Made by a program: the position numbers and the translations under genes. A DNA stretch of 64,000 nt from contig NZ_CP065377.1 in NCBI RefSeq assembly GCF_019967995.1, positions 1,240,001 through 1,304,000 on the forward strand, read 5' to 3'. Under the pieces are notes generated by a model. It was not told the origin of the DNA. It searched no databases and saw only the letters and a list, made by a program, of their open reading frames with translations. The first letter of the stretch is position 1; each line of letters starts with the position of its first letter. This DNA comes from Faecalibacterium prausnitzii. GTDB lineage: Bacteria > Bacillota > Clostridia > Oscillospirales > Ruminococcaceae. This document shows positions 5,718-18,893 of the stretch, in pieces.

Positions 5718-6038
5718 ATCGCAAAATTGATCGTGGCGGAAAAACCGTCCGTTGCCATGTCCTACGCCAAAGTCCTCGGTGCCACCAGCCGTCAGGATGG
5801 CTACCTTGAGGGCAACGGCTATCTGGTAAGCTGGTGCGTGGGGCATCTGGTTGAGCTTGCGCCGCCCAATGTCTACGATGCCAAATACGTCAAGTGGAAC
5901 ATTGCAGATCTGCCCATCCTGCCGCAAAAGTGGGAGTATCTGGTGTCTGCCAGTACCAAAAAACAGTTCGGCATCCTGCAAAAGCTGATGCACTGCCCGG
6001 ATGTTGACAGCGTGATCTGTGCTACGGATGCAGGGTAG
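5718..6038 (+). pseudogene. topB: topB 5' part: DNA topoisomerase III, interrupted by the nested element
   Basis: This is the N-terminal TOPRIM part of a type IA topoisomerase (AKLIVAEKPSVA onwards), ending in frame at CATDAG followed by a TAG contributed by the inserted element. The remainder resumes in the same frame at 17118 with DAGREGEL. No ATG, GTG or TTG lies at the expected start. GGAGG at 5706-5710 points to ATC 5718 (or ATT 5712) as a near-cognate start, which is unusual. Joined at the core repeats the protein would be about 695 residues, normal for element-encoded TopB. As it stands the gene cannot make an active enzyme, because the insertion falls in the acidic metal-binding motif of the active site. 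Confidence 0.88.
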
Positions 6039-6053
6039 TGCGGTTAGGTGACT
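6027..6053. other. attL of the nested element
   Basis: The junction holds the core GATGCAGG (6027-6034) at the end of the topB 5' part, followed by the element arm with AGGTGACT at 6046-6053. The arm is the inverted counterpart of AGTCACCT at 17093-17100 at the other end. With the ends joined, the dyad centre falls on the GA dinucleotide of the core, as expected for the crossover site of a large serine recombinase. The crossover assignment is inference from symmetry. Confidence 0.75.
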
Positions 6054-6123
6054 CAAGAGAAAGAAAAAAGAGACCTCATCTCGTCAAAAATCAAATTTCA
6101 AAATCATTAAAGGAGCTATTCAA

Positions 6124-6384
6124 ATGAAACGAAATCAGAATTTCGACCATAATCACTCTCAAAAACTGCTTTCCTTCCGCTACAACATAGACACCAACCG
6201 AGTGGAAGCCCGGTTCACGGATGGCTCTGCCGTCGCCAACAGGATGCCCAACTGCCTCAGAACATCCTCAACCCGCTACTTTACAGTGGGGTTGACACGG
6301 AGGATTGAGTGTCATCGTTTTTTCATGGCTACCGCCGAAAATCATTGTAACGTATTTTGTGTTACAAATTGGTCAAGCGAATGA
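6124..6384 (+). CDS. Small hypothetical protein, DUF6061-like N-terminus, possibly frameshifted
   Basis: This 86-residue open frame starts at ATG 6124 after AAAGGAGC at 6110-6117, and is the first gene inside the nested element. Residues 13-36 (SFRYNIDTNRVEARFTDGS) resemble the N-terminus of small DUF6061-type proteins common in Clostridial mobile elements. The remainder does not look conserved. The +1 frame after codon 36 reads more protein-like and ends at a TGA near 6308, so a frameshift is possible. Function is unknown, and the family match is tentative. Confidence 0.45.
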   Translation: MKRNQNFDHNHSQKLLSFRYNIDTNRVEARFTDGSAVANRMPNCLRTSSTRYFTVGLTRRIECHRFFMATAENHCNVFCVTNWSSE

Positions 6385-6481
6385 TTATGATTAAAATTCT
6401 CTTACTCGCACAATAAGTCATTTGATAAACTGGTTAAAATGCCAAATAATTTCAAATCATAGTCCAACACACAACAAATGT

Positions 6482-6489
6482 GGTATAAT
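6482..6489 (+). promoter_or_regulatory. Extended -10 promoter upstream of the 6543 gene
   Basis: TGGTATAAT at 6481-6489 is an extended -10 element 53 bases upstream of ATG 6543. No good -35 is visible, as expected for the extended -10 class. The surrounding 200 bases are markedly AT-rich. Confidence 0.5.
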
Positions 6490-6542
6490 AACAATATATT
6501 TAATGCTTTAACTGTGTTTGCAAAAAGGAAAAGAAGATAAGT

Positions 6543-6899
6543 ATGGAGATTACATGGTTGAAAAATGAAGATAATGCCATTCAATACGTCTATGCCTCTG
6601 CTGTTCCCCAAAAAATACCATTAGACATTTTTAAAGAAATTGTTCAGAGCAGTAAAGAAAACTGTCTACCTGAATTTTATGTGATATCTGAACAGGGAAA
6701 GTATATCGGATATATTTTATTATTGGCCGATAAAAAAGAAGACATCCCTAAACCTTTTACATTTCTTGCATGTCATAATGGCGATACTCTGCCAAAAGAA
6801 ACTCACAAAAAAATATTGGAATTTATCGGCAAACGGTGTCGTGTAAACAACTGGAATAAACTCGCTTGGTTGGCCGAACAAGAAATCCAGCAATTGTGA
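6543..6899 (+). CDS. Hypothetical 118-residue protein
   Basis: This gene is not recognised. It starts at ATG 6543 after a purine-rich AAAGGAAAAGAAG stretch. The product is a soluble, mixed alpha/beta-looking protein with a hydrophobic strand YIGYILLLAD near residues 53-62 and a cysteine pair near residues 76 and 99. The gene is AT-richer than the rest of the element, which suggests separate ancestry. It stands alone between an extended -10 promoter and a convergent bidirectional terminator, so it is probably monocistronic. The central part is faintly reminiscent of GNAT-type folds, but no acetyl-CoA motif is visible and no function is assigned. Confidence 0.55.
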   Translation: MEITWLKNEDNAIQYVYASAVPQKIPLDIFKEIVQSSKENCLPEFYVISEQGKYIGYILLLADKKEDIPKPFTFLACHNGDTLPKETHKKILEFIGKRCRVNNWNKLAWLAEQEIQQL

Positions 6900-6979
6900 T
6901 ATCATCGTTTTTTAAGCTATCTCTCTATAAAAACTCCTTAAAGACATAAAGGCAAACTTGAATAAATAAATTTATCTAA

Positions 6980-7034
6980 AAGCCCCACCTACAATAGATA
7001 TTCCAAATCGAAGAATCTACTGCAGGTGGGGCTT
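6980..7034. terminator. Bidirectional hairpin between convergent genes
   Basis: AAGCCCCACCT at 6980-6990 pairs with AGGTGGGGCTT at 7024-7034 across a 33-base loop. On the minus strand the stem is followed by TTTTAGATAAATTT. It lies between the plus-strand gene ending at 6899 and the minus-strand gene ending at 7090, so it can serve both. Confidence 0.7.
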
Positions 7035-7089
7035 GTTCTATGTGATAAGCTATTTTGTAAAAATCAAATACGTAGATTATATGGCAGAA

Positions 7090-7605
7090 TCATTTGGTGA
7101 CACTGAAAGCTAATGTTGCGCCATCAACGACACTATACATATCGCCGTTAGCCGCAGTAGCAATTCCAGTAAACTCAACCTCCCATTTTCCTTTAGAGAG
7201 TCCATATTTTACATCTTCCGTACCGATTGTGCCGTATGCAGAAATGGCATGATCAAAGGTTCCAAAGGGTGTACCAAGTTTATTGAAATGCAGGTTACCT
7301 TCAAAGGAAACAATTACTGCACCCGGAACGGTAATCGTCCATTGGATATACCCTTCAGACAGATAATCAAGTGTACATGAACCAGCATCGCCCCAGAAGG
7401 TTTCGCGAGAAATTGGGACAAGTTTGAATGTTGCAGAGTTTACAGTTGTTCCTTTATCAATTTCGATACTAGATTTTTTGGAAGAAAGTGCTACAACGCC
7501 TGGTTCAACTGCAACAGCAGCAGGCATCAAAACTGTGTTGAAAACAACCAACGCAGCACTCGTTCCAGCCATTTTAAGGAATTCATTTCGGGTCATCTTT
7601 TTCAT
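7090..7605 (-). CDS. Secreted hypothetical protein downstream of the agr locus
   Basis: This 171-residue protein has a signal peptide of about 32 residues (basic MKKMTRNEF, hydrophobic core, AVAVE cleavage region). The mature part is rich in Ser, Thr, Gly and aromatic residues and looks beta-rich; one cysteine is visible. The start is ATG 7605 with AAGGAG 10 bases upstream. The N-terminal TRNEFLKMAGTSAA is slightly Tat-like but lacks the twin arginine. It is the last minus-strand gene of the agr neighbourhood, separated by about 195 bases from the gene before it, so it may have its own promoter. No family is recognised. A secreted effector or bacteriocin-like role is conceivable but unsupported. 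Confidence 0.65.
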   Translation of the reverse strand: MKKMTRNEFLKMAGTSAALVVFNTVLMPAAVAVEPGVVALSSKKSSIEIDKGTTVNSATFKLVPISRETFWGDAGSCTLDYLSEGYIQWTITVPGAVIVSFEGNLHFNKLGTPFGTFDHAISAYGTIGTEDVKYGLSKGKWEVEFTGIATAANGDMYSVVDGATLAFSVTK

Positions 7606-7800
7606 GTCGATTTGCTCCTTATATTTTATTGACTGTTACAAGTCACCCAGCTACAATTTGGATTCTTTTTCGCTTAATTCTGCACTGGAATCACCTCTTA
7701 CAAAATTTTAGTATATTGGCATCATCGTGATCAAAAGCAATATCACTAACAGCCACCTCATCACACTATAAAGCCGCAAATTTTCAACTCAGGTGTATGC

Positions 7801-8190
7801 TCATCGGCAAATAAATGTGAACCATACGAATGCCGCTGTTAAACAACCTGCCAAAACCACTAAAATACAACTTGCCAACTTTGGCTCAATAGCAACTTTT
7901 TGATTTTCGCACAGCGCAAATTTCTGAAGTTCCTGAAATGTTGTTTGATTGACATTGCCGTGTATTGCTTTCCATGCAACGAAATGATTTGTAATCAGAA
8001 GATAATCTGAAACGATTCCTACAAAAACAATGGCAAAAAATGCTGCGGAAAAGAACCACATTCCATCGCATTGATTCACCGTCAGGATATCCTGAAGGCT
8101 TGCTGGCTTCAATGCCCATAAAGCCACAACATATAGCAATACTTCGCAGAAATCTCTTTGGAGTGGCCCTTTTTGCTTAAAGAATCCCAT
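7801..8190 (-). CDS. Hypothetical integral membrane protein in the agr-linked cluster
   Basis: The product is 129 residues with three hydrophobic segments at about 14-31, 45-65 and 107-126 and a polar, charged region between the second and third. ATG 8190 is preferred, with GGGAGA about eight bases upstream. A TTG at 8232 would add 14 residues and overlap the upstream gene by 11 bases, so coupling is possible. It follows the secreted 248-residue protein in the same direction. A membrane protein next to a secreted protein and agrBD suggests export, immunity or anchoring of a secreted product. That is inference from context only. Confidence 0.55.
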   Translation of the reverse strand: MGFFKQKGPLQRDFCEVLLYVVALWALKPASLQDILTVNQCDGMWFFSAAFFAIVFVGIVSDYLLITNHFVAWKAIHGNVNQTTFQELQKFALCENQKVAIEPKLASCILVVLAGCLTAAFVWFTFICR

Positions 8191-8221
8191 TACATGTTCT
8201 CCCTGTTCTTTGAAGTCACTA

Positions 8222-8968
8222 TCAGCCACCAATGGCCTGATAATAATCCGTTTTAGACCGAATCAAAGAGCCATTTGACTTATATTCCTTGACAGTTTGA
8301 TGATAGCAATGTGTATAGTAGCTATTGTCATAGGAAAATAGGACTTCATACGTAATAGAAGATATTGTCACTTTATAGCAGTCCGAGGACATACTCTGAA
8401 GCATCTGATCGAAAATAAACGATGCTGTAGAAGAAATAACTGCTGCTGGTGTGCTTCCCCATGCAGTTGCTAAAATACTGGCTACATCAGATGCTTTTTT
8501 GCATTTACGCAAATCACTAGCATAAACCGTATCGGTTGCACTTGTGCCAACATAGCGGTGCTTGAACTGCGACCCTGTCACCTCGCTTCCAGTGAGTGCA
8601 GGAATTTGTGCCAGCTGTCCGTTTTTGTAATTTTGCTGATCTTGATAAATTTCATAGAACAAGCTATAGTCACTTCTTGCAGTTGATGTTGTTGATTCAC
8701 CAGATGCACCTACAACAACAATGTCCATCACATCATTAGGATGCACCGTACGCGTAATTCGTGTGATACCTCCATCACGAATTGTAAGCTGTTCAACAAC
8801 ATCTTTTCCATTCATCGAGTACGAAACAGAATAATTTGATCCTGTCAAAAGAGATTCGCTATTGCCATGATTTGTTGAATCTGCAAAGGCAATGGGCATA
8901 ATGGAAGCAACACAAAGCAGCACCGCTAACACGCAGGAAATATAACGCAAATATGTTTTTGTTTTCAT
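8222..8968 (-). CDS. Secreted hypothetical protein in the agr-linked cluster
   Basis: This 248-residue protein starts at ATG 8968, with AAAGGA ten bases upstream; an in-frame ATG 18 bases earlier lacks a site. A clear signal peptide spans residues 1-30 (LLCVASIMPIAFAD). The mature part is Ser/Thr/Tyr-rich with a late region rich in Tyr, His and Cys (SYYTHCYHQTVKEY). It contains no recognisable catalytic motif. The gene lies downstream of agrB, agrD and a 31-codon frame in the same orientation, so it may be read from the agr promoter. I do not recognise a family. Confidence 0.65.
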   Translation of the reverse strand: MKTKTYLRYISCVLAVLLCVASIMPIAFADSTNHGNSESLLTGSNYSVSYSMNGKDVVEQLTIRDGGITRITRTVHPNDVMDIVVVGASGESTTSTARSDYSLFYEIYQDQQNYKNGQLAQIPALTGSEVTGSQFKHRYVGTSATDTVYASDLRKCKKASDVASILATAWGSTPAAVISSTASFIFDQMLQSMSSDCYKVTISSITYEVLFSYDNSYYTHCYHQTVKEYKSNGSLIRSKTDYYQAIGG

Positions 8969-9059
8969 TTTGTTTTTTCCTTTCATGCATTCCTATAGAA
9001 CAACGGACTCTCATCTGTGCATCGGAAACACCTCCGAAGTACATTGATTATCGATGCTC

Positions 9060-9155
9060 TCACTTTTTCAAGAGATATTTTCCAAATGCAAGGACGCCTA
9101 GAATATAGAAAAGCTGACGAACAATCAACATAATGAATGAAAGCAGCTCCAACAT
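9060..9155 (-). CDS. 31-residue hydrophobic peptide between agrD and the secreted protein gene
   Basis: This short frame reads MLELLSFIMLIVRQLFYILG and continues through a second hydrophobic stretch to a basic end, KYLLKK. It is a single amphipathic or membrane-spanning helix with a positive C-terminus, a composition typical of small membrane toxins, leaderless bacteriocins or phenol-soluble-modulin-like peptides. AAAAGGA lies about 11 bases before ATG 9155. It sits in the agrBD transcript direction, where agr-controlled peptides would be expected. It could also be a chance frame, and there is no family match by eye. Confidence 0.45.
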   Translation of the reverse strand: MLELLSFIMLIVRQLFYILGVLAFGKYLLKK

Positions 9156-9233
9156 AATCGAACAGTTCCTTTTAGAAAATTATCAAGAAATATATCCCGT
9201 AAGAGTATCGCTATCTTACCTTTCATATGAATT

Positions 9234-9368
9234 TCAGTCATGCTCAAGCGATTCCGGGACATCCGGCTGATATGCCGTAAAGCCACAGGTGCTGTTCACG
9301 CTCAAGACTGCGAGAGCCATTGCCATAATGCAAGTGACCTTGCTCAAGAGCAACATAATCTTTTTCAT
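9234..9368 (-). CDS. agrD: AgrD-type cyclic lactone autoinducer precursor
   Basis: This 44-residue propeptide starts at ATG 9368, nine bases after CGGAGG. It has the three AgrD parts: an amphipathic N-terminal leader (MKKIMLLLSKVTCIMAMALA), a peptide segment (NSTCGFTA) and an acidic recognition tail (YQPDVPESLEHD). The tail pattern [YH]QP(D/E)xPxSL is characteristic of Clostridial AgrD; the aligned C. perfringens sequence is CLWFT-HQPEEP. By that alignment the thiolactone ring is predicted as Cys28 to Ala32 (CGFTA), with some N-terminal residues possibly retained. AgrB encoded just upstream would process and export it. The family call is firm; the exact mature peptide is inference. Confidence 0.88.
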   Translation of the reverse strand: MKKIMLLLSKVTCIMAMALAVLSVNSTCGFTAYQPDVPESLEHD

Positions 9369-9436
9369 TTCTGTTACCTCCGTTTGATATTTTTTAGAGC
9401 ATTCATCTTCTGAAAACACATGAACGCCCTCGTACC

Positions 9437-10015
9437 TTAGGATATCTTCGCTTGTTTCTGAAAAAACGGAATGATTGCAAAAATCACTAAAACCCATTTT
9501 GAAATGTAGTATACCGTTATACTGCGGGTGTCCGGAAGCACATTGAAAATGGCAAACAGGAAATCTATTGACGAAAGAACAGATGCGACCATCTTATAGC
9601 TTAACCGCTTCTTTTTGCCTAAAGGCTTATTCGTTGCTTCTATCGGAGAGAAAAAGATAGCGATGCCCATAAGAGCTGCTGTTGTCAGGATACGAAAAAG
9701 GTGATTGGCTGCAATTACTTTACTCAGCAAAATGCAGATAAGTGCCAGTCCGGTAAATGCCAGATAGCATCTGGTGTGCGACGTTGCATGATATCCACCA
9801 ATGTAGATTCTCTGCGGGATAAACCCAATCAAAAATGAAAGTGAGTATCGAACATCACCACACACGGCAGAGACGAGGATGACAAGCAAAACACTTACAA
9901 CAGACGATATGAGCAACTCGTACCCATAGACATACGCATCCGCTTTTGATTCGTCTACCACTTTTTGTTCGCAGAAAAGACGGACTAATTTCTGAGACAG
10001 CGTGCGTTCCCACAT
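9437..10015 (-). CDS. agrB: AgrB peptide-processing membrane endopeptidase
   Basis: This 192-residue polytopic membrane protein cleaves the AgrD tail and forms the thiolactone. The motif GGYHATSHTRC places the catalytic histidine at residue 76 and the cysteine at residue 83, the seven-residue spacing seen in S. aureus AgrB. FSPIEATNKPL further on is another typical AgrB signature. About five or six hydrophobic segments follow the N-terminal cytoplasmic stretch. Length is normal. The start is ATG 10015 with a moderate AAGGTGG site. It is transcribed away from agrA and agrC, from a shared regulatory region that contains AgrA-type direct repeats, so autoinduction is expected. Confidence 0.92.
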   Translation of the reverse strand: MWERTLSQKLVRLFCEQKVVDESKADAYVYGYELLISSVVSVLLVILVSAVCGDVRYSLSFLIGFIPQRIYIGGYHATSHTRCYLAFTGLALICILLSKVIAANHLFRILTTAALMGIAIFFSPIEATNKPLGKKKRLSYKMVASVLSSIDFLFAIFNVLPDTRSITVYYISKWVLVIFAIIPFFQKQAKIS

Positions 10016-10085
10016 TGCAGTTGCGCCACCTTATCTTCTGATTTTTGCTTCACTGTATCATAAATTTCAACAAAATCAAGAGGTT

Positions 10086-10118
10086 TGGCAAAACCGGTCG
10101 TTCTGGTGACAAAAGTGG
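10086..10118. promoter_or_regulatory. Direct repeat with 21-bp period, candidate AgrA (LytTR) binding site
   Basis: TGGCAAAACCGG at 10086-10097 and TGACAAAAGTGG at 10107-10118 match at 9 of 12 positions and are exactly 21 bp apart. LytTR regulators such as AgrA bind two 9-bp repeats separated by about 12 bp, which gives the same period. The pair lies between the divergent agrB and agrA genes. The site assignment is inference from spacing and place. Confidence 0.6.
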
Positions 10119-10131
10119 TAAGTCAGGCTAC

Positions 10132-10160
10132 TTGTAAGGAGCCTTTGCACAGTCTATAAT
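10132..10160 (+). promoter_or_regulatory. Promoter of agrA-agrC
   Basis: TTGTAA at 10132-10137 and TATAAT at 10155-10160 are spaced by 17 bp, about 35 bases before ATG 10195. The -35 hexamer is imperfect, which is compatible with activation from the direct repeats just upstream. Confidence 0.65.
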
Positions 10161-10194
10161 AGTATCAGAACATTATTTTGTGGAGGTTGTCGAA

Positions 10195-10893
10195 ATGCTG
10201 AAGTACCACGTTGCAGTCTGCGATGATGAGAAGTCAGACCTTGATGGTATTGTTCAAAGCGTCCAGCGATACGATGTGCAAGGTTGCTTTGACATTGAAA
10301 CTTACATGGACGGAAACGAACTTCTGAGCGAATTGCAAATGCAGAAGAAATCCTTCGATTTGCTGCTGCTCGACATTGAGATGCCATCCAACGGTTTTCA
10401 GCTGGCACAATCCCTGATTCAAATGGAGAAGCATCCCTTGGTGGTATTTGTCACGAAGCGGCACGAGTATGCTGTGCAGGGATATGGCATTGCATTCCGC
10501 TACCTTGTCAAACCTTTGGATCAGACGCTGTTCGCTGCGGCGATGGACGCTGTCCTTCAGGAACTGAACTCCAAACATTTCACAATCGAATACGATGGTG
10601 TCACCATGTCCTTGGAAACATCAGATATTTACTTTCTGGAAAGCCACGGACATAAAGTTCTGATCCACTGCAAGGAGCAAGACCTTACATTGAGAATGAG
10701 CATTCCTGAAGCCTTGGAGCAGCTTCCCAAACGATGCTTCGTGTCGCCACACAAAAGTTATCTTGTCAATATGGAACACATTGTTTACGCTACTGGAACC
10801 GCTGTTTTTCTTTCCAGCGGACATCAGCTACCGATCAGCAGGAGGAAGCGTCAGGAGTTCAATCAGAACTTTAACGCTTATTTGGGAAGATGA
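10195..10893 (+). CDS. agrA: AgrA-type LytTR response regulator
   Basis: This 232-residue protein has a receiver domain (about 1-120, acidic pair DD at 10-11, phospho-acceptor Asp60 in LLLLDIEMP, conserved lysine in RYLVKPL) and a C-terminal LytTR DNA-binding domain (about 130-232; FVSPHKSYLVNM and LPISRRKR). The start is ATG 10195, eight bases after TGGAGG; the upstream in-frame GTG at 10180 has no site. It should be phosphorylated by the adjacent AgrC sensor and act at the repeats in the divergent promoter. Its TGA overlaps the ATG of agrC, indicating co-translation. All key residues are present. Confidence 0.9.
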   Translation: MLKYHVAVCDDEKSDLDGIVQSVQRYDVQGCFDIETYMDGNELLSELQMQKKSFDLLLLDIEMPSNGFQLAQSLIQMEKHPLVVFVTKRHEYAVQGYGIAFRYLVKPLDQTLFAAAMDAVLQELNSKHFTIEYDGVTMSLETSDIYFLESHGHKVLIHCKEQDLTLRMSIPEALEQLPKRCFVSPHKSYLVNMEHIVYATGTAVFLSSGHQLPISRRKRQEFNQNFNAYLGR

Positions 10894-12158
10894 TACTTTA
10901 TTATTTCGTTGAGTTTGCAGGGAGCTTTGCCAACATCGCTCTGTTGCTGCTTTTTATCGGTCGGCTATTTCCTAAAAAGGAGCCCGTTTCAAAATGGTTC
11001 TATGTGTATGTTGTGCTTATGATCGCTGGCCAGTGTGCACTAAGCTTATTCCCGGACTGGGTAACGCAGCGCACGATCTATCTTTTAGTTGGCGGATTTT
11101 TCCTCGCACTGCTGTTTTACGAAGTGCGACCATGGCAGGCGGTTTTTGCAAGCGGAGCTTTCTTTACGCTGATTGCTTTGGTGGAAGTGCTTGCAATGCT
11201 CCTGATCGGGCTGCGCATCCCTGATACCGATATTCTGATGCAGGCTGGGGCAGCACGGTTGGTTTATGTTGTTTTTTCAAACCTGATTCAAGTTCCACTT
11301 GTAGTCCTGATCTCACATTTTTTCAGTCGAAAGGGAAATGCTCTGCGCATCCTATGGCTGTTGCCAATTATTGCGATTCAAATCGCAAGCATCGCTGTCT
11401 GTTATGTGGCACAGTATCATGCTGCGGATGAGTATTTCCCGGATTATATGGTCGGCCTTATGGCTGTGCTTCTCCTTATAAACATCCTGATCGTGTTCTA
11501 TGTGGAAGCTCTCCGGGAAAATGAACTGGAAAAATTCAAAGCCAAGTTCAATGAGCAGCAGTACAATCTTCAAATGGAATACTACCAGCAGCTCAAAGAA
11601 CGTCAGGAAGAAGTCCGTTCTCTACGGCATGATGTGAAGAAATACATTCTGGCGATGCAGGCAGTTGCAGAACACGGCGATACCGAAGAACTTCACAAGA
11701 TTGCACAAGCTGCCACGGATATTTTTGAGCGTTCCACAAATGTTTCTGCTGTCGGAAACCCTGTTGTTGATGCTCTTTTGAATTATTACCTACGCATCGC
11801 AGAGAAGAATAACATCAAGGTCAAACTGGATGTGACGATTCCTGAAGTTCTGACGATCTCATCGCTGTCTTTGAGCATCATCCTCGGAAATACATTTGAC
11901 AATGCCATTGAAGCCTGTTGCAGTCTGCCAGCGGAACAGCGAACCATCCATTTACAGCTGCGCAAACAATATCGGAGCCTTTTCTATCGGCTGGAAAACC
12001 CATACAGTGATACTTCTCGCGGAATCCGCATCGGAGAACATCATGGTTACGGGCTAAAAAATATAAACCGTATCGTTCAGGAAAACCATGGTGACTTCTA
12101 CACGAAAAAGAAAGACGGTGTATTTACGGTTCAAGTTCGCTTGAACTGCGAAAATTAA
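10890..12158 (+). CDS. agrC: AgrC-type GHKL sensor histidine kinase
   Basis: This 422-residue receptor kinase has six hydrophobic segments in the N-terminal 210 residues, a coiled linker and a GHKL kinase domain. The phospho-accepting histidine is in SLRHDVKKY (about residue 247). The N box is GNTFDNAIEAC and the G box is HHGYGLKNI. This is the HPK10/AgrC architecture that senses cyclic peptides, so the ligand is expected to be the AgrD product encoded about 1.5 kb away. ATG 10890 overlaps the agrA stop. There is no truncation. The kinase call is certain; peptide specificity is inferred from linkage. Confidence 0.9.
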   Translation: MILYYFVEFAGSFANIALLLLFIGRLFPKKEPVSKWFYVYVVLMIAGQCALSLFPDWVTQRTIYLLVGGFFLALLFYEVRPWQAVFASGAFFTLIALVEVLAMLLIGLRIPDTDILMQAGAARLVYVVFSNLIQVPLVVLISHFFSRKGNALRILWLLPIIAIQIASIAVCYVAQYHAADEYFPDYMVGLMAVLLLINILIVFYVEALRENELEKFKAKFNEQQYNLQMEYYQQLKERQEEVRSLRHDVKKYILAMQAVAEHGDTEELHKIAQAATDIFERSTNVSAVGNPVVDALLNYYLRIAEKNNIKVKLDVTIPEVLTISSLSLSIILGNTFDNAIEACCSLPAEQRTIHLQLRKQYRSLFYRLENPYSDTSRGIRIGEHHGYGLKNINRIVQENHGDFYTKKKDGVFTVQVRLNCEN

Positions 12159-12233
12159 ATATGTTTCCACAGCCAAATGATCAGCCTTTATACTGATTGT
12201 TTGGCTCTTTATTTTGTAAAGGAGCGTGATGCT

Positions 12234-12551
12234 ATGACCCAGCCCAAATCCGACCTTGCCTATCTCCGCAGCGAAAAAGCCAAAGCGGAGCAGCAGCTAC
12301 GCTACTACAAGCACCGTGAGAAAATTCTGGAACATCAGATACCGGAGCTGACCCGCAAAGCCCGTGTGCATCGTCTGTGTACCCGTGCCGGAATGCTGGA
12401 AAGTTTTCTGATTGCGCCGGAAGAACTCACCAACGATCAGGTGATGGAGCTGCTGAAAATTGCGTTCCGTCAACCAGAAGTTGCGCTGGCACTTGCAAAG
12501 ATGATTCACGACTTGCAGGAACGCCGCAGCGTTTCAAACCCTTTAGAATAA
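12234..12551 (+). CDS. DUF3847 family protein, relaxase-linked
   Basis: This 105-residue protein has an N-terminal coiled coil (SEKAKAEQQLRYYKHREKILEHQ) and a helical C-terminal half. The start ATG 12234 follows AAAGGAG at 12218-12224. Small DUF3847 proteins lie immediately upstream of MobA/MobL relaxases in many Firmicute mobilizable elements, and this one ends one base before the predicted oriT. That position suggests a relaxosome accessory or DNA-binding role comparable to MobC, though this is inferred from context. The family call rests on length, the basic coiled coil and position. Confidence 0.72.
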   Translation: MTQPKSDLAYLRSEKAKAEQQLRYYKHREKILEHQIPELTRKARVHRLCTRAGMLESFLIAPEELTNDQVMELLKIAFRQPEVALALAKMIHDLQERRSVSNPLE

Positions 12552-12578
12552 AGGGCGCAATTATACACCGTTCCGGTG
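12552..12578 (-). other. oriT: Predicted origin of transfer (oriT) of MobQ/RSF1010 type
   Basis: On the minus strand the inverted repeat CACCG-GAA-CGGTG is followed by TATAATTGCGCCCT. This matches the RSF1010/pTA1060 layout, in which a hairpin precedes the nick region TAAxTGCGCCCT. It lies directly between the DUF3847 gene and the MobQ relaxase gene, the usual oriT location. The nick would be at the end of the GCGCCCT motif by homology. Confidence 0.7.
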
Positions 12579-12608
12579 AAATTGCGGTCTTGCAGACGGC
12601 TCGATGAA

Positions 12609-12740
12609 ATCGAAGCTGGCGTTTGTTCGCCAGCCCGATTCCATCCCAAGGAAAACTGCATTTTCCTTGCGCTGCCTTGCAGCTATCCTTTTGCGGATCC
12701 CGCCTTGCCCCGAAGTGCGCAGCACTCCGCATCAAGGCGG
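12609..12740. repeat. Three consecutive perfect hairpins between oriT and the relaxase gene
   Basis: Hairpin 1 is GCTGGCG/CGCCAGC (12615-12634, extended by ATCG/CGAT). Hairpin 2 is AAGGAAAA/TTTTCCTT (12648-12668). Hairpin 3 is CCGCCTTG/CAAGGCGG (12700-12740) with an inner AGTGC/GCACT stem. None has a downstream T-run, so they do not look like ordinary terminators. They could be structured leader RNA or folded single-stranded transfer DNA. The frame across this stretch is open, but it probably is not coding. Confidence 0.6.
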
Positions 12741-12814
12741 CGAGCAAAACCGAATACGATTTCCGACCGTTCAACAAGAACTATCTTGCTGGGCGGTCTT
12801 TTTGTTTGGGGGTG

Positions 12815-14395
12815 ATGCCTATTTCGTGTCCGCATTTCAAAATCACCATCGTAAAACGCAGCCAAGGGCAGTCCGCTGTTGCTGGCGCAGCCTACCAGAG
12901 CGGCGAACGGCTGTTCAGCGAATACGACCAGAAAACGAAATTCTACAACAAGAAGAAAGAACTCGTCCACTCCGAGATCATGCTGCCGCCCCATGCGCCG
13001 CCCGGATATGCAGACCGGGCAACGCTCTGGAACGCAGTAGAATCCGTTGAAAATCAATGGAACTCGCAGCTTGCCCGCCGCATCGTGCTGGCACTTCCGA
13101 GAGAAGTTCCGAAAGACCAGTATCTTCCCATGCTCAAAGAATTTTGCAAAGAGCAGTTCGTTTCCAAGGGCATGATTGCTGACTTCGCCATCCATGACAA
13201 AGGCGATGGGAACCCACACGCCCACATTCTGCTGACCATCCGGGCAATGGACGAACACGGCAAGTGGTTGCCGAAAGCCCGCAAGGTTTACGACCTTGAC
13301 GAAAACAGCGAGCGCATCCAGCTCCCATCCGGCAACTGGAAATGCCACAAGGAGAACACGGTGGACTGGAACGACCAGAAGTATGCCGAGGTCTGGCGGC
13401 ACAGTTGGGAAGTTGTTACAAACCACTATCTTGAAGCCGCTGGCAGACCGGAACGTGTTGACCTCCGCTCATTCGAGCGTCAGGGAGTGCAGCAGATTCC
13501 GACCGTCCATCTCGGCCCCGCTGCTCACCAGATGGAAAAGCGAGGAATCGAAACCTTTCTCGGAAATCTCAACCGGGATATTCGCGCGGCCAACAGCCTG
13601 ATGCAGTCCATTCGCAGCACTATCCGAGGTCTGCAACGCTGGATCGCAGACCTGACCGAAAAGAAGCAGATTCTTCTGGACGCACTGGAACAGGCCAAGG
13701 AGCCAACGCTGTCCGATCTTCTGGTGGACTATTTCAATCTCCGCAATGAGCAGCGCAGCGATTGGTCGAGCAAGGCGCAACTGAAATGTTCTGCCCGTGA
13801 CCTCAACGAAGTCATGCAGGCTGTTGATTATCTGAAAGCCCACTCGCTGAACACGGTCGAGGACTTGAACGCTGCAATCAAAGACCTGAGCCAGACCGCC
13901 GCCCCGTTGCGTAAGCAGTTGAAGCAGAACGAGAACCGGATGCGGGCAATCGCCCAGATCAAGGACGCTGCTGCCATCCATGCCAAGCTGAAGCCCATCC
14001 ACGATACCTTTCTAAAGAAGAACTTCAAGCTGACAAAGGATGCCTATGCAGCCCAGCACAAAGAAGAACTGGACGCTTTCAATAAAGCTGTCCGCACTCT
14101 GATGAAGCTGAACGGCGGCACGACCGTGGATTTTTCGGCATTGGATGCCGAATTTTCTGCGCTGCAATCGGGCAGCGCAGAGCTGCGCAGCCAGCTGGAA
14201 ACTTTGCAGCCTGACCTGACCGCACTGAAAAATGTGCGCAAGTATATCGACCTTGTGCTGAATAAGCAGCAGCTTTCCGCACCGGGCGGCAAGACCCCAG
14301 AGAAAGAATCTGTGCTGAAGCAGTTGGAGCAGCTTCAGCAAGAAAAATCAAAACACAAAGCGATTACCGCCATGAACCGCGAAGAATCGCTCTAA
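12815..14395 (+). CDS. mobA: MobA/MobL family (MobQ) relaxase
   Basis: This 526-residue relaxase would nick and pilot the nested element at its oriT. The N-terminus (FKITIVKRSQGQSAVAGAAYQSG) is the classic MobA/MobL motif I region. The metal-binding histidines are in GNPHAHILLT (about residues 130-140). The C-terminal half is long, helical and coiled-coil. ATG 12815 is chosen because family members begin just before HFKITIVKR; the ribosome site GGGGGT is close and atypical. The open frame extends 64 codons upstream through hairpins, but that part lacks conservation. DUF3847 and oriT precede it. It belongs to a different family from the MobP relaxase of the host element. Confidence 0.88.
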   Translation: MPISCPHFKITIVKRSQGQSAVAGAAYQSGERLFSEYDQKTKFYNKKKELVHSEIMLPPHAPPGYADRATLWNAVESVENQWNSQLARRIVLALPREVPKDQYLPMLKEFCKEQFVSKGMIADFAIHDKGDGNPHAHILLTIRAMDEHGKWLPKARKVYDLDENSERIQLPSGNWKCHKENTVDWNDQKYAEVWRHSWEVVTNHYLEAAGRPERVDLRSFERQGVQQIPTVHLGPAAHQMEKRGIETFLGNLNRDIRAANSLMQSIRSTIRGLQRWIADLTEKKQILLDALEQAKEPTLSDLLVDYFNLRNEQRSDWSSKAQLKCSARDLNEVMQAVDYLKAHSLNTVEDLNAAIKDLSQTAAPLRKQLKQNENRMRAIAQIKDAAAIHAKLKPIHDTFLKKNFKLTKDAYAAQHKEELDAFNKAVRTLMKLNGGTTVDFSALDAEFSALQSGSAELRSQLETLQPDLTALKNVRKYIDLVLNKQQLSAPGGKTPEKESVLKQLEQLQQEKSKHKAITAMNREESL

Positions 14396-14861
14396 ATCAT
14401 ATTTCTGCCACTGATGTGTCATTGCAGTCTGTGGCAGGAATACATAGATTTTTTTACATTGTAAAACAATCCAAATGTGACTTTTTTGTTAATTCTCAAA
14501 ATTATGGGTGTCTAAAGGTCTTTCTCGATGCCTACCAAGTGAGAGAAGAATTTCAAGGTGAGCATTTCTAAATGCAACAATTTGATTACAATCCTGCTTC
14601 GGATGCTACGAAACCGCTGTTCTCGTCGGCTACCTATTGAGCGATCTTTTTTTATTTCCGGCGTATGCAACGTCCCGGTTTCAGAAAACTCACGGCTAAG
14701 ACTACTTATGAACTTTTTGTGAATTCTTAAAAGCGAGGGTGTCTTTTAGCTCCTCTCGATGGCTCGTATATAGAAGCTGATTTTTTGGAAACCCAACTTC
14801 CGCAGATTTTCCATACGTTCTTTGACAACAGAATAGTTCAATCGTCCGGTACGTCACAAAA
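14396..14861. other. 466-base gap with two diverged copies of a 55-base sequence
   Basis: No convincing gene is present. A segment at 14479-14533 recurs with about 70 percent identity at 14710-14764. Both share CTTTTTxGTxAATTCTxAAAA, then GGGTGTCT and CTCGATGxCT. The copies are about 230 bases apart and may be regulatory or remnants of a repeated unit. The rest is AT-rich and featureless by eye, apart from an imperfect stem (CTGCCAC/GTGGCAG, 14405-14437) after the relaxase stop. Confidence 0.45.
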
Positions 14862-14986
14862 GGTACTTCTGTAACTCGCAGCCCGGTCATGACGAAGACG
14901 GGGTGGCTGAAATGCCAATGATGCGGTAAAAATCCGCTGCCGGACGATTCCCCACTCCTAGGGAGCCGAGGGCGAATATGGGAGAC
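14862..14986 (+). ncRNA. Structured RNA candidate, copy 1
   Basis: This segment is strongly similar to 42019-42139 in the other accessory region, whereas flanking DNA is not. Shared blocks include CCCGGTCA, GACGGGGTGGCTGA, ATGCCAATG and GCGG-loop-CCGC. A terminal hairpin is CTCC/GGAG here and CACC/GGTG in the second copy, a compensatory T-A to A-T change that supports base pairing. It precedes a small recombinase-linked gene. No named RNA family is recognised. It may be a cis-regulatory leader or an element-specific RNA. Confidence 0.6.
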
Positions 14987-15011
14987 CTATATCATATTAA
15001 CGCAGACGAGT

Positions 15012-15182
15012 TTGTTCAAGCCCGCCTGCGATGGGGAGCTGGAGGAGATGCCGGCTCTCGTTACATCCGCTTCCTCAACGGAACCTTCCGCCCAATCAGC
15101 GGGGGTAAAACAAGAGGAGAAAGACGATTGGAGTCCATTCCTTTCCGCACTTGCAGCACATGAACAGGAGGTTTGCCCTTGA
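15012..15182 (+). CDS. Possible small protein upstream of the TnpW-like gene
   Basis: This 56-codon frame from TTG 15012 ends at TGA 15180-15182, which overlaps the TTG start of the next gene. The translation (FKPACDGELEEMPALVTS, then a Ser/Ala/Glu-rich middle and DDWSPFLSALAAHEQ) looks more natural than the competing ATG frame at 14978-15163. The ribosome site is weak, so the start is uncertain and translation may begin within the preceding RNA candidate. Function is unknown. Confidence 0.3.
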   Translation: MFKPACDGELEEMPALVTSASSTEPSAQSAGVKQEEKDDWSPFLSALAAHEQEVCP

Positions 15183-15361
15183 ACAAAGAAAAATCCGAGA
15201 AGAAGTCTGCTGAACGCAGCCGTGCGCCGAGAAGTCCGAAGTCCGTGCGTCTGATCGTAGAACGCCACTATATTGGCAATGTGCCGATGAACACGCTTTT
15301 TCAACGGCTTGCAGAGGAAGAAATTCGGAAAACTGCCGAATCGTATCTTGCAGCTGGCTAA
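15179..15361 (+). CDS. Small recombinase-linked protein, TnpW-like
   Basis: This 60-residue protein starts at TTG 15179, seven bases after AGGAGG at 15166-15171. The N-terminus is very basic (NKEKSEKKSAERSRAPRSPK), followed by a beta strand RLIVERHYIG and an amphipathic helix (LFQRLAEEEIRKTAESYL). Short proteins of this form (transposon-encoded TnpW and relatives) sit directly upstream of serine recombinases in Clostridial elements. The recombinase begins 93 bases later behind its own promoter. The role may be DNA binding or recombination directionality, which is inferred from place only. Confidence 0.55.
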   Translation: MNKEKSEKKSAERSRAPRSPKSVRLIVERHYIGNVPMNTLFQRLAEEEIRKTAESYLAAG

Positions 15362-15387
15362 TTGGACGTTTTACTGCGGAAAAGAGC

Positions 15388-15416
15388 TTGCATCATCGCA
15401 CAGGTTTCGATACAAT
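15388..15416 (+). promoter_or_regulatory. Promoter of the serine recombinase gene
   Basis: TTGCAT at 15388-15393 and TACAAT at 15411-15416 are separated by 17 bp, about 39 bases before the ATG at 15455. No AgrA-like repeat is seen beside it. Confidence 0.55.
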
Positions 15417-15454
15417 GTGATTGATGAGGTCTCTTTTCCATTATGGAGGTACAC

Positions 15455-17080
15455 ATGGAAAAGGACAAAAAAGTAACCGCTTTATACTGCCGCCTGTCAA
15501 AAGATGACGGGTCAGCCCATGAAAGCCTGAGCATCCGCACACAAAAGGCGATGCTTATGGAGTATGCCACACGCAACGGTTTCGGAAATTGCCAGTACTA
15601 TGTCGATGATGGTTACAGTGGAACGAACTCTGACCGTCCTGCCTTTCAAGAACTGCTGGATGATATCCGGGATGGAAAGGTAGCGACCGTCATTACCAAA
15701 GACCAATCCAGACTTGGACGCAACCACATCGAAACCGGAACGTATATGGAAATCTTTTTTCCGGAACACGGTGTCCGCTATATTGCAATCAACGATGGTT
15801 ACGATTCCAACGAGCAATCCCAGATGGATATTGCTCCGTTCAGAAACATCATCAATGAAATGTATGCCAAGGATACTTCCCGTAAAATCAAGAGTGCTCT
15901 TCGGACACGCAAGAAAAGTGGGAAGTATATCTCCAGCGGCGCACCGTTTGGCTATCAGAAAGACCCTGCCGACCACAACCACCTTGTGATCGACCCGAAT
16001 ACCGCCCCTGTTGTTGAGTATCTCTATTCATTGGCGGAGGAAGGACTTGGGCTTCACCGTATCGCCAAACGGCTTCACGATGAGAAAATCCTGAAGCCGT
16101 GCTACTACAAAAAAGAGATGTTTGGTCGCTTTGTCGATGATGAAAAGATGTATGATTGGGATTCTGCCTATGTCAGTCAAATTCTGCACAGCCCGGTCTA
16201 CGCCGGACACATCATCTATGAAGCAAAACCTACTGTGTCCATGAAATCCAAGAAGCGACGTTATATCCCTTTTGAAGAACGTGCTATTGTTCCGAACACG
16301 CATGAAGCAATCATCCCACAAGACCGTTGGGAGAATGTGCAGCGAATCCTTTATAGCCGTTCCGGTAGTTTTATGTGCGATAAGACCGAATACGACAACA
16401 TCTTCAAAGGAATCGTTCGCTGCGCAGATTGTGGCAGAACAATGTTGGTCAAAGTTGAAGCCCGCCGCAAACGCAATAACATTTTGGATCAGACATTTTA
16501 TTGTTGCAGCACTTATCGGAAGTATGGTGCGAAAGCCTGCGCCTCTCACAACTTGGAAGCCCGTGTTTTGCATGAAGCTGTCCTTGCTGACATTCAGGCA
16601 CACGCAAAGGCCGCTGTGGGCAACCGAGACGCCCTTGTGCGAAAAATTGCAGACCAGATGCACCTTCGGGTATCTTCTGACCGGGCGCAGCACAAGCGGG
16701 AATTGAAACAGTGTAAAGCAAGAATCGCAGAAATCGAAGATTTGTACGCAAAACTTTATGAGGATGTGTCAAAGGGGCTTCTCCCGGAGAAACGTTTTCA
16801 AATGCTTGCAGATCGCTATGACAAGGAACAGGCTGAACTGACCGAAAAAATCGAGCAGTACGAACAGGAAGGTCGTGCTGAACACGATCAGATGGATAAG
16901 ATTCAGGATTTTATTGATGAAGTCAGCAAGTATGCTGGCATCACCGAACTGAACTATAAGATTCTGCACCAGCTGATCGACAAGATTCTGGTATCCAAAG
17001 CGGAAAAGGTCGATGGCGAATACGTCCAGAAAATCCAGATTTTCTACCGCTTTATCGGCCCATTGGATGCCATTGAGTAA
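15455..17080 (+). CDS. Large serine recombinase (integrase) of the nested element
   Basis: This 541-residue TndX-like recombinase would catalyse excision and insertion at the topB core. The N-terminal resolvase domain carries the nucleophilic serine in YCRLSKDDG (Ser15) and conserved arginines in KDQSRLGRN. A recombinase domain follows (about 165-290), then a zinc beta-ribbon (CADCGRTM to FYCCSTY, about 325-365) and a long C-terminal coiled coil (about 410-490). ATG 15455 is preferred over 15443 because TGGAGG occupies 15444-15449. The gene ends 37 bp from the right core repeat, the usual place for such integrases. It is intact and complete. Confidence 0.92.
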   Translation: MEKDKKVTALYCRLSKDDGSAHESLSIRTQKAMLMEYATRNGFGNCQYYVDDGYSGTNSDRPAFQELLDDIRDGKVATVITKDQSRLGRNHIETGTYMEIFFPEHGVRYIAINDGYDSNEQSQMDIAPFRNIINEMYAKDTSRKIKSALRTRKKSGKYISSGAPFGYQKDPADHNHLVIDPNTAPVVEYLYSLAEEGLGLHRIAKRLHDEKILKPCYYKKEMFGRFVDDEKMYDWDSAYVSQILHSPVYAGHIIYEAKPTVSMKSKKRRYIPFEERAIVPNTHEAIIPQDRWENVQRILYSRSGSFMCDKTEYDNIFKGIVRCADCGRTMLVKVEARRKRNNILDQTFYCCSTYRKYGAKACASHNLEARVLHEAVLADIQAHAKAAVGNRDALVRKIADQMHLRVSSDRAQHKRELKQCKARIAEIEDLYAKLYEDVSKGLLPEKRFQMLADRYDKEQAELTEKIEQYEQEGRAEHDQMDKIQDFIDEVSKYAGITELNYKILHQLIDKILVSKAEKVDGEYVQKIQIFYRFIGPLDAIE

Positions 17081-17092
17081 CAACGTCAGAAA

Positions 17093-17125
17093 AGTCACCT
17101 CCGAGAACTATCCAACAGATGCAGG
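17093..17125. other. attR of the nested element
   Basis: The element arm AGTCACCT (17093-17100) is followed after 17 bases by the core GATGCAGG (17118-17125), after which the topB frame continues. It is the mirror of the left arm at 6046-6053. Both arms are equidistant from the GA of the core when the ends are joined. Confidence 0.75.
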
Positions 17126-18893
17126 ACGCGAGGGAGAACTGATCTTCCGTTTGGTGTACCAGCAAGCAGGTTGCAAAAAGCCCTTTTCTCGCCTGTGGCT
17201 GTCCAGCATGGAGGAAAACGCTATCCGGGAGGGCTTCGCCAACCTGAAACCATCAACTGAATACGATGCGCTGTACAATGCAGCACTCTGCCGGGAACGT
17301 GCCGACTGGATGGTCGGCATCAATGCGTCCCGGCTTTTTTCGTGTCTGTACAACCAGCCCTTGGCGGTGGGACGTGTTATGACTCCGGTGCTTGCCATGA
17401 CGGTGGTGCGGGAAGCCGCCATCGCTGCCTTTGTGCCGGAGAAATTCTACACGGTGAATCTGGAACTGACCAGCGGCTGCACGGCATCCAGCCGCCGTAT
17501 TCCCGAAAAATCCGTTGCCGAAAACCTGCTGGAAGCCTGCCGAAAGGAGATGGTAGCAACGATCCAGCGCATCACCCGCAAGGAAAAATCCGAAAATCCG
17601 CCGCCGCTGTACGATCTGACCACCCTTCAGCGAGATGCCAACCGCCTGTTGGGATACAGCGCACAGCAGACGCTGGACTATGTGCAGAGCCTGTATGAGA
17701 AGAAACTTACCACTTATCCCAGAACTGATAGCTGCTATATCACCGACGATGACGAGGAAATGCTGGAGGAACTGACCGAGGAGTTGGAAAGTTTTCTCGA
17801 CATTGCCCCGGAAGATGTGGACGAGGCGGTGCCCCGGACACGGCGCACCGTCAACAGGGAAAAAGTCACCGACCACCACGCCATTCTGCCCACTCGCAGT
17901 ATGCTGCAAGCCGATCTGGGCTCACTGCCCAAGGGGGAGCAGAACGTCCTGAAGCTCATCATCGCCCGGACGCTGATGGCAGTCAGCAAGCCCTTCCGTT
18001 ATCTGGAAACCCTGCTGACCACCGAATGTGCCGGGGAGAAATTTACCGCCAAGGGCAAGGAGATTCTGGAGGAAGGCTGGAAAGCAGTGGAGCGCAAGGT
18101 GCTGGCAGACATCCTGAACCGGAAACAGGAACTCACCGCCCTGCCCAACGCAGCGGAAAACGAGTGCGGCATCCTCAACGCCGAACTGAAAGAGGGGCAG
18201 ACCTCGCCGCCGAAGCATTTTACCGAGGACCTTCTACTTCATGCGATGGAAACTGCCAGTGCGGATAGTATGCCGGAGGGTGTGGAGCGTCAGGGTATCG
18301 GCACTCCAGCAACCCGTGCCGCCACTATCGAAAAGCTGGTGCAGAAGGGCTTTCTGGAACGGAAAGGCACCAAGAAAACCAAGGTGCTGCTGCCCACGGA
18401 TAAGGGAAAAGCCCTCATCACTGTGATGCCCGAAGAAATCCAATCCCCGGAAATGACCGCTGATTGGGAAACAAAACTGCTGCAAATCGAGCGCAGCGAA
18501 ATGGAGCCAGAAACTTTTATGACTGAAATCAAAGAGATGATCTCCTCGCTGGTAACGACCACCGAGGCTGCGAAAGGAGCGAATGCGCTTATGAAAAACA
18601 AAATCATCGGTGTCTGCCCCAACTGTGGTGCAAATGTTGTGGAGCGTGAAAAGGGCTGGTTCTGCGAGAACCGGGAGTGCCGCTTTGTGCTGTGGAAGGA
18701 CAATGCGTTCTTTAAGCGGCTAGGCAAGCGGCTGGACGCTCATGTGGCGGACAAGCTGCTGCGGGATGGTCGGGTCCGCCTGAAGGACTGCAAGAGTGCC
18801 AAGGGCAAGACCTACAACGCCACCGTGCTGCTGTCCTGTGAAGCGGATGGCCGCAGCAAGTTCAGTCTGGAATTTGAGAATGGGGGCTGCTGA
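17118..18893 (+). pseudogene. topB: topB 3' part: DNA topoisomerase III, central and C-terminal domains
   Basis: This continues topB in frame from DAGREGEL (the TOPRIM glutamate region) through the catalytic tyrosine motif YPRTDS, the GIGTPATRA motif and a C-terminal zinc ribbon (CPNCGANVV to CENRECRF). It contributes 591 codons. Without the first 103 codons upstream of the nested element it has no start and lacks the first TOPRIM strand, so it should be inactive until excision. Type III topoisomerases are standard in Tn1549-type elements, where they help resolve DNA during conjugative processing. Its TGA overlaps the next ATG (TGATG), so expression of the downstream gene may also depend on reading through this part. 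Confidence 0.88.

Follow-up and report, generated by a model that had tools for sequence, protein, structure and literature searches.

A probable integrative and mobilizable element with exchangeable signalling cargo in the TOPRIM aspartate codon of Faecalibacterium topB

The stretch of Faecalibacterium prausnitzii DNA analyzed here (NZ_CP065377.1, assembly GCF_019967995.1, positions 1,240,001–1,304,000 of the forward strand; 64,000 nt, hereafter the window, whose own coordinates are used below) contains an insert at 6027–17125, flanked by the 5′ part of topB on the left and by the 3′ part of topB on the right. The insert is very probably a TnpX-like/MobQ integrative and mobilizable element (IME) lying in the TOPRIM Asp codon of topB in a larger, predicted conjugative element; it would insert and excise by a crossover at GA and leave topB intact. 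This conclusion is supported by 11 topB genes of the genus in which this left end occupies one and the same codon, by a natural empty allele of a second copy in the genome, and by an attP that is symmetric about GA. The two parts of the interrupted gene are as follows.

5718–6028, plus strand: topB 5′ part, the TOPRIM half (TIGR01056, E = 3.9e-39; PF01751 Toprim), which ends within the Asp codon, after its second base.
17120–18893, plus strand: topB 3′ part, with the rest of the DAGREGE motif and the topoisomerase domains (TIGR01056, E = 5e-125; PF01131, E = 4.1e-110).

Both parts adjoin copies of the 8-bp repeat GATGCAGG, at 6027 and 17118, consistent with the initial annotation, in which the insert interrupts topB of another element. 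That annotation placed the insertion between codons of the DAGREGE motif (a TOPRIM motif); the junction actually falls inside the Asp codon, between GA and T. In the integrated state, the 5′ part of topB hits a TAG stop 8 bases into the insert. Joining the flanks without the insert gives SVICATDAGREGELIF with the frame kept, and the joined topB comprises 691–694 codons depending on the start, as calculated from the coordinates. The proposed scarless restoration of an enzyme of about 695 residues thus holds by sequence, and with it the recovery of a reading frame upon excision that characterizes regulated switches of the comK/sigK prophage type. The predicted excised circle is 11,091 bp (17118 minus 6027). 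When one of the genome's intact topB genes served as the query, the interrupted Asp aligned with residue 103 of topoisomerase III chain 11yy_A, a residue taken to bind the catalytic metal. The same genome holds two further topB genes that are intact and one contiguous topB copy with a broken frame. The two intact genes weaken a strict on/off role for the docked topB, and with them in place the loss of one copy may cost little.

A survey of the genus (31 genomes; 71 rows for the topB 5′ part and 73 for the 3′ part) identified 59 contiguous topB pairs, 10 of which have an open frame below 690, some broken and some cut, and 12 5′ parts without an adjacent 3′ part. Eleven of these 12, including the one in the window, end at residue 106 (DAG) and run into the left end of this IME family; they are found twice each in the window's own genome, G028, G014 and G009, and once each in G013, G017 and G029. 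The shared codon and left end argue that the insertion site is not a matter of chance. The twelfth (in G027) is broken at residue 63 and represents a separate event. A comparison of Faecalibacterium topB genes with and without the insert, as the initial annotation had proposed, therefore finds 11 of the 71 5′ parts interrupted at this codon. The interrupted 3′ parts are 44–100% identical to that of the window. In Acetivibrio ethanolgignens, a recombinase with 69% identity abuts a topB with 57% identity at this codon too, as read from the right-hand junction.

Homologous elements lying mostly outside topB, a pattern at odds with the initial annotation, were looked for and not found: among the 14 insertions with a readable flank, 12 are in topB at one codon and 2 are elsewhere. 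This distribution rules out low-specificity insertion and departs from the low target specificity of the TnpX/Tn4451 group, reported for Tn4451 (PMC5704250). Left out of the 14 were L016 and L032 (contig ends short of the junction), L019 and L020 (recombinase fragments, L020 with a topB 5′ piece, residues 3–55, alongside), and L033 (a recombinase at 47%). L033, in genome G208, is the nearest other recombinase; it abuts DLEQRNGRIIRQGN, with GA again at the junction, and its right flank, in which Pfam finds nothing, weakly resembles an SNF2 helicase (E = 2.8e-4). The weak match and the GA suggest that neighbouring recombinases dock in snf2. Recombinase draws beyond the genus at E 1e-150, in which few candidates were scored per genome (mostly 3), revealed no further close relative: of 396 genomes in the family, 2 scored (the own genome and the one at 47%); the draws of 391 from the class and 398 from the phylum each returned the own genome alone. 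At E 1e-60, 34 plasmid and 16 phage records were recovered, every one below 60% identity, and viral contigs gave no match to the sequence patterns of one queried protein.

A separate observation concerns the topB 3′ parts L028, L029, L107 (G028) and L108 (G014:C68), which share a frame shift near residue 74 at one T-run, with five T versus six in the window. The shift also occurs in a short-contig assembly and so may be real slippage, not sequencing error.

A tree of 45 topB 3′ parts (34 uninterrupted and 11 interrupted, Acetivibrio included; rows without a locus in hand omitted) places 9 changes for the insertions, 8 of them forced by well-supported branches. With shuffled labels the mean is 9.9 changes, and 135 of 500 shuffles are as low as observed. 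Neighbours on the tree are the two G028 copies, and G014:C2 with G009:C17. Because the topB tree needs at least 8 changes, the interrupted copies, as judged from it, form no single lineage and most insertions are independent; the scatter on the tree rules out one inherited insertion.

Further support comes from a second copy in the window's own genome, located on the minus strand between G000:C1:869565 and 880455 in another conjugative-type element. Its natural empty allele, at G029:C1:723k, is identical over 302 of 302 bases to the left and 300 of 300 bases to the right of the crossover, with no bases gained or lost; over stretches of about 4 kb, identity is 98.2% and 95.2%. The insertion in G029 itself has a less similar empty counterpart at G003:403k (~95%). 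The second copy is 99.7% identical to the copy at G017:2915k, and the two occupy different sites, which argues that the element moves.

Several observations weigh against this interpretation. An empty allele for the window copy was looked for and not found. Outside topB lie the complete copy at G017:2915k and a decayed one in F. hattorii, which has a recombinase truncated at its start and interrupted by a stop; no left end was found for this decayed copy. At G017:883k, where the left junction is present, neither a recombinase nor a topB 3′ part was detected in the 13.3 kb examined. In addition, one of the 10 right junctions read (G009:C17) is missing CAGA, including the crossover, so that copy would not excise cleanly. 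The copy at G017:2915k (L030) follows an ORF whose product closely resembles one of the cargo proteins of the G014:C26 element, and may therefore sit within the remnant of another such element.

Comparison of the junctions and reconstruction of attP defined the two attachment sites.

6027–6051, plus strand: attL, the GA crossover followed by the element's right attP arm (TGCAGG-G-TAGT...GGTGACT).
17093–17119, plus strand: attR, the left attP arm (AGTCACC...ACTATCC) followed by the GA crossover.

The left end in every left junction read is GATGCAGG followed by element sequence, and the right flanks of other copies start with GACGCAGG, GATTCCGG or GATGCCGG; by this comparison, the left-hand GATGCAGG is the element's own sequence. 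GA is the sole sequence common to all junctions read, except G009:C17. Inverted arms (AGTCACC, seven bases, ACTATCC) flank GA at the centre of the reconstructed attP, and 17 of the 25 arm positions pair about this centre; 2000 mononucleotide shuffles gave 5.6 on average and never more than 13. The initial annotation had taken the 8-bp repeats as the recombination core. Since other copies sit in differing right-flank alleles and attP is symmetric about GA, the GATGCAGG repeat is ruled out as the core, and the junctions and the symmetry point instead to GA as the likely 2-bp crossover. A 2-bp crossover is also described for Tn4451/TnpX (PMC5704250, PMC3158075).

The right-hand part of the insert encodes the proteins on which its classification rests.

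12177–12551, plus strand: DUF3847 protein, adjoining the relaxase (PF12958).
12623–14395, plus strand: MobQ / MobA-MobL relaxase (NF041496 above cut-off; PF03389, E = 9.5e-91).
15443–17080, plus strand: TnpX-like large serine recombinase, 545 aa (PF00239, PF07508, PF13408, PF14287).

By its gene content, the insert is an IME with a TnpX-like recombinase and a MobQ relaxase, for which mobilization is predicted. It has its own site-specific integrase, with four serine-recombinase Pfam domains and a match to TnpX chain 2mhc (E = 1.3e-34), as in the TnpX/Tn4451 group. Besides the relaxase, no secretion gene was detected among the insert open reading frames (ORFs) scanned, the small ones in part. 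The ends are precise, as determined by comparison of the copies, and an empty site is provided by the empty allele for the genome's second copy. The initial description of a mobilizable element with its own serine recombinase and a full agr system is borne out, as relaxase, recombinase and AgrA, AgrB, AgrC and AgrD were all detected.

Based on these data, we propose that a conjugative element already resident in the cell offers its topB as the site into which the recombinase inserts the circle. The docked insert would disable that topB copy and would be carried along by the conjugative element; alternatively, its relaxase may let the insert use the transfer machinery of the conjugative element. 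Excision would then restore topB.

The middle of the insert carries the agr genes.

9060–9155, minus strand: ORF for a 31-aa hydrophobic peptide, immediately downstream of agrD; its counterpart in the agr-bearing copy G028a is identical.
9234–9368, minus strand: agrD, 44 aa, predicted cyclic-lactone autoinducer precursor (TIGR04223, E = 2.8e-10, cut-off passed).
9437–10015, minus strand: agrB (PF04647, E = 1.1e-32).
10089–10119, minus strand: direct repeat ACCACTTTTG / ACCGGTTTTG with a 21-base period upstream of agrBD, a predicted candidate AgrA site.
10180–10893, plus strand: agrA, LytTR response regulator (PF04397, E = 8.8e-19; PF00072).
10890–12158, plus strand: agrC, GHKL histidine kinase (PF14501, E = 4.4e-16).

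AgrB, AgrD, AgrC and AgrA are thus encoded together, as a predicted quorum-sensing system, and the 31-aa product could be a secreted or membrane peptide. The direct repeat upstream of agrBD, which in our judgment looks like an AgrA site, is kept in the relative G017:883k. When the insert was scanned with the pattern of this repeat, 6 sites scored at least 12/16 (mean of 1.1 in 30 shuffles); the best precedes agrBD, and none of the 6 lies before the recombinase (14396–15442). Because the pattern was derived from the agrBD repeat itself, only its absence elsewhere is informative. It is probable that agr controls agrBD and the same-strand genes behind it, and not the recombinase.

The copies have in common the right module (DUF3847, relaxase and recombinase) and ~210 bases of the left end, with the middle exchanged. 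Cargo was read in 10 elements, G009:C38 and G013:C52 being too short, and the domains of each cargo type were scanned in a single representative. The full agr set is present in 2 of the 10 (the window and G028a), with identical or nearly identical proteins. Five (G000b, G028b, G017:2915k, G014:C20 and G009:C8) carry a sigma factor, a DUF4367 protein and a trypsin-like protein; single elements carry a divergent agrA/agrC with a short agrB (G017:883k), another LytTR/GHKL pair (G014:C26), or an OmpR-type pair with an ABC transporter (G029). Some signalling module is therefore present in all 10. Since the same topB targeting also occurs in elements that lack a complete agr set, targeting is independent of agr, and the varying cargo rules out agr as its driver.

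These data bear on what might time the release of the element. If AgrA, activated by the element's own peptide, drove the recombinase, topB would be restored at high density; the complete agr system and its close match in G028a agree with such a switch, but its presence in 2 of 10 elements and the position of the best AgrA-like repeat before agrBD, with 0 of 6 sites before the recombinase by a pattern taken from the agrBD repeat, make it extremely improbable. Cell density as the input, suggested in the initial annotation, accordingly finds no support in the cargo, the targeting or the repeat scan. A broader variant, in which the sensor cassettes (agr, sigma/anti-sigma, LytTR and OmpR-type) decide release so that an outside signal times topB recovery and helper transfer, is very doubtful. 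The alternative offered in the same annotation, a hitchhiker that disables a gene of its host element until it departs, fits better than a quorum-sensing input, and the sequences point to a likely topB-specific hitchhiker with swappable signalling cargo.

The remaining ORFs of the insert are listed below.

6124–6384, plus strand: probable remnant of a DUF6061 gene that is intact in relatives (comparison with relatives).
6543–6899, plus strand: 118-aa ORF without a match in Pfam, NCBIfam or PADLOC.
7090–7605, minus strand: 171-aa ORF whose N-terminus resembles, by eye, that of a secreted protein (ORF list; domain and PADLOC scans).
7801–8232, minus strand: 143-aa ORF (same sources).
8222–8986, minus strand: 254-aa ORF, N-terminus likewise secreted-looking by eye (same sources).
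15173–15361, plus strand: 62-aa ORF preceding the recombinase (sequence comparison with other copies).

The 62-aa ORF is 92–94% identical in the 7 other copies having that region and was not found in the Acetivibrio copy. PADLOC gave no matches among 5 cargo proteins. Pattern scans, not used as evidence, counted 26 promoter-like sites versus a shuffled mean of 16.6 (sd 4.1) and 11 terminator-like sites versus 12.7 in shuffled sequence. A RepA_N-type gene, present before the recombinase in relatives, is missing at 14395–15172, leaving a ~480-base gap relative to G000b.

The absence of the RepA_N gene, together with the broken-looking DUF6061 gene at the left end and the decay visible in related copies, would be expected if the window copy were immobile and topB of the conjugative element a dead gene. 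The window copy nevertheless retains, in open or intact form, its recombinase and relaxase, the two attP arms and the two halves of topB, and we regard such a fixed insertion as unlikely.

In the window, topB is preceded by a VirB4 protein (CD1110 family) and a CD1108-family protein, on the basis of which the host is predicted to be a conjugative element, presumably of the Tn1549/CTn4 type. Repeated insertion inside a conserved gene of an integrative and conjugative element (ICE), the hallmark of embedded IMEs, is seen in 11 topB genes of the genus, with the conjugative context annotated in the window. This setting raises the possibility that exit is triggered by induction of the host element and not by cell density, such that topB and the downstream operon genes work only then and the IME re-docks after transfer; this adds timing to the docking and excision proposed above. 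The junctions are scarless by sequence, the topB halves are open, the insert sits among transfer genes, behind those for VirB4 and the CD1108-family protein, and the recombinase is co-oriented with topB. For IMEs in ICE genes, Coluzzi et al. proposed, with reference to precedents among prophages, that excision is timed to conjugation (PMC5357655), and helper-embedded phage-inducible chromosomal islands (PICIs) excise upon helper induction (PMC10111431). However, the two other intact topB genes could supply topB in trans, and one copy (G009:C17) lacks the crossover bases. We therefore hold such timing to be possible, although somewhat improbable.

The same host element is also interrupted elsewhere: a second element of ~9 kb (L013; G000:C1, ~1229898–1239040), just before the window, lies in its maff2, as indicated by a Maff2 match on the uninterrupted counterpart of the site (E = 9.5e-42). 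Its serine recombinase is 37% related to that of the topB insert, and maff2 is a docking site already known for other IMEs. With the topB insert, the host element thus carries two nested elements.

The topB insert is reminiscent of the serine-integrase IMEs in streptococcal ICE genes (traG, snf2, maff2, PPI and COG4646; PMC5357655, PMC7168690), which share an integrase, a relaxase and a disrupted conserved gene; target and genus differ, with a topB TOPRIM codon in Faecalibacterium and exchangeable signalling modules here. Tn1806 is likewise nested in snf2 of another ICE (PMC12942858). IME_Rho_tet (PMC12904643) is also a gut Bacillota IME with a serine recombinase, its near-identical copies occupy diverged alleles of a single ICE gene, and a natural empty ICE is known, but its target is maff2 and its cargo tetracycline resistance. 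Tn4451/Tn4453 and Tn6104 (PMC3158075, PMC5704250) share the TnpX-like recombinase, the 2-bp crossover and a MobA/MobL-type gene, and Tn6104 is also nested in a conjugative transposon with regulatory cargo; the 12 of 14 insertions in one topB codon distinguish the present family from Tn4451. In helper-embedded PICIs (PMC10111431), a satellite occupies a helper gene that is active only after excision, as was measured there and is inferred here; those are phage satellites in prophage late genes, in contrast to an IME in an ICE. Finally, the phage phiCDHM1 (PMC3901668) is another mobile element from a clostridial host that carries agr genes, namely agrD, agrB and agrC, versus agrB, agrD, agrC and agrA on an IME here.

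In the literature searched, which left most subscription papers and supplements outside, no description of IMEs docking in topB was found; 'topo' is absent from the texts of PMC12904643, PMC7168690, PMC5704250, PMC5357655 and PMC7563491, and 'topoisomerase' from those of PMC3158075 and PMC6907783. IMEs embedded in ICE genes are known already, and what is new here is the docking gene and codon: the TOPRIM Asp codon of topB joins traG, snf2, maff2 and PPI among the ICE-gene docking sites of IMEs, in a major gut commensal. Because intact, interrupted and empty topB alleles exist in close relatives, the choice between a parasite and a timed exit is directly testable. The family also shows that whole signalling cassettes, among them a full agr system, can be exchanged on a common mobile backbone.

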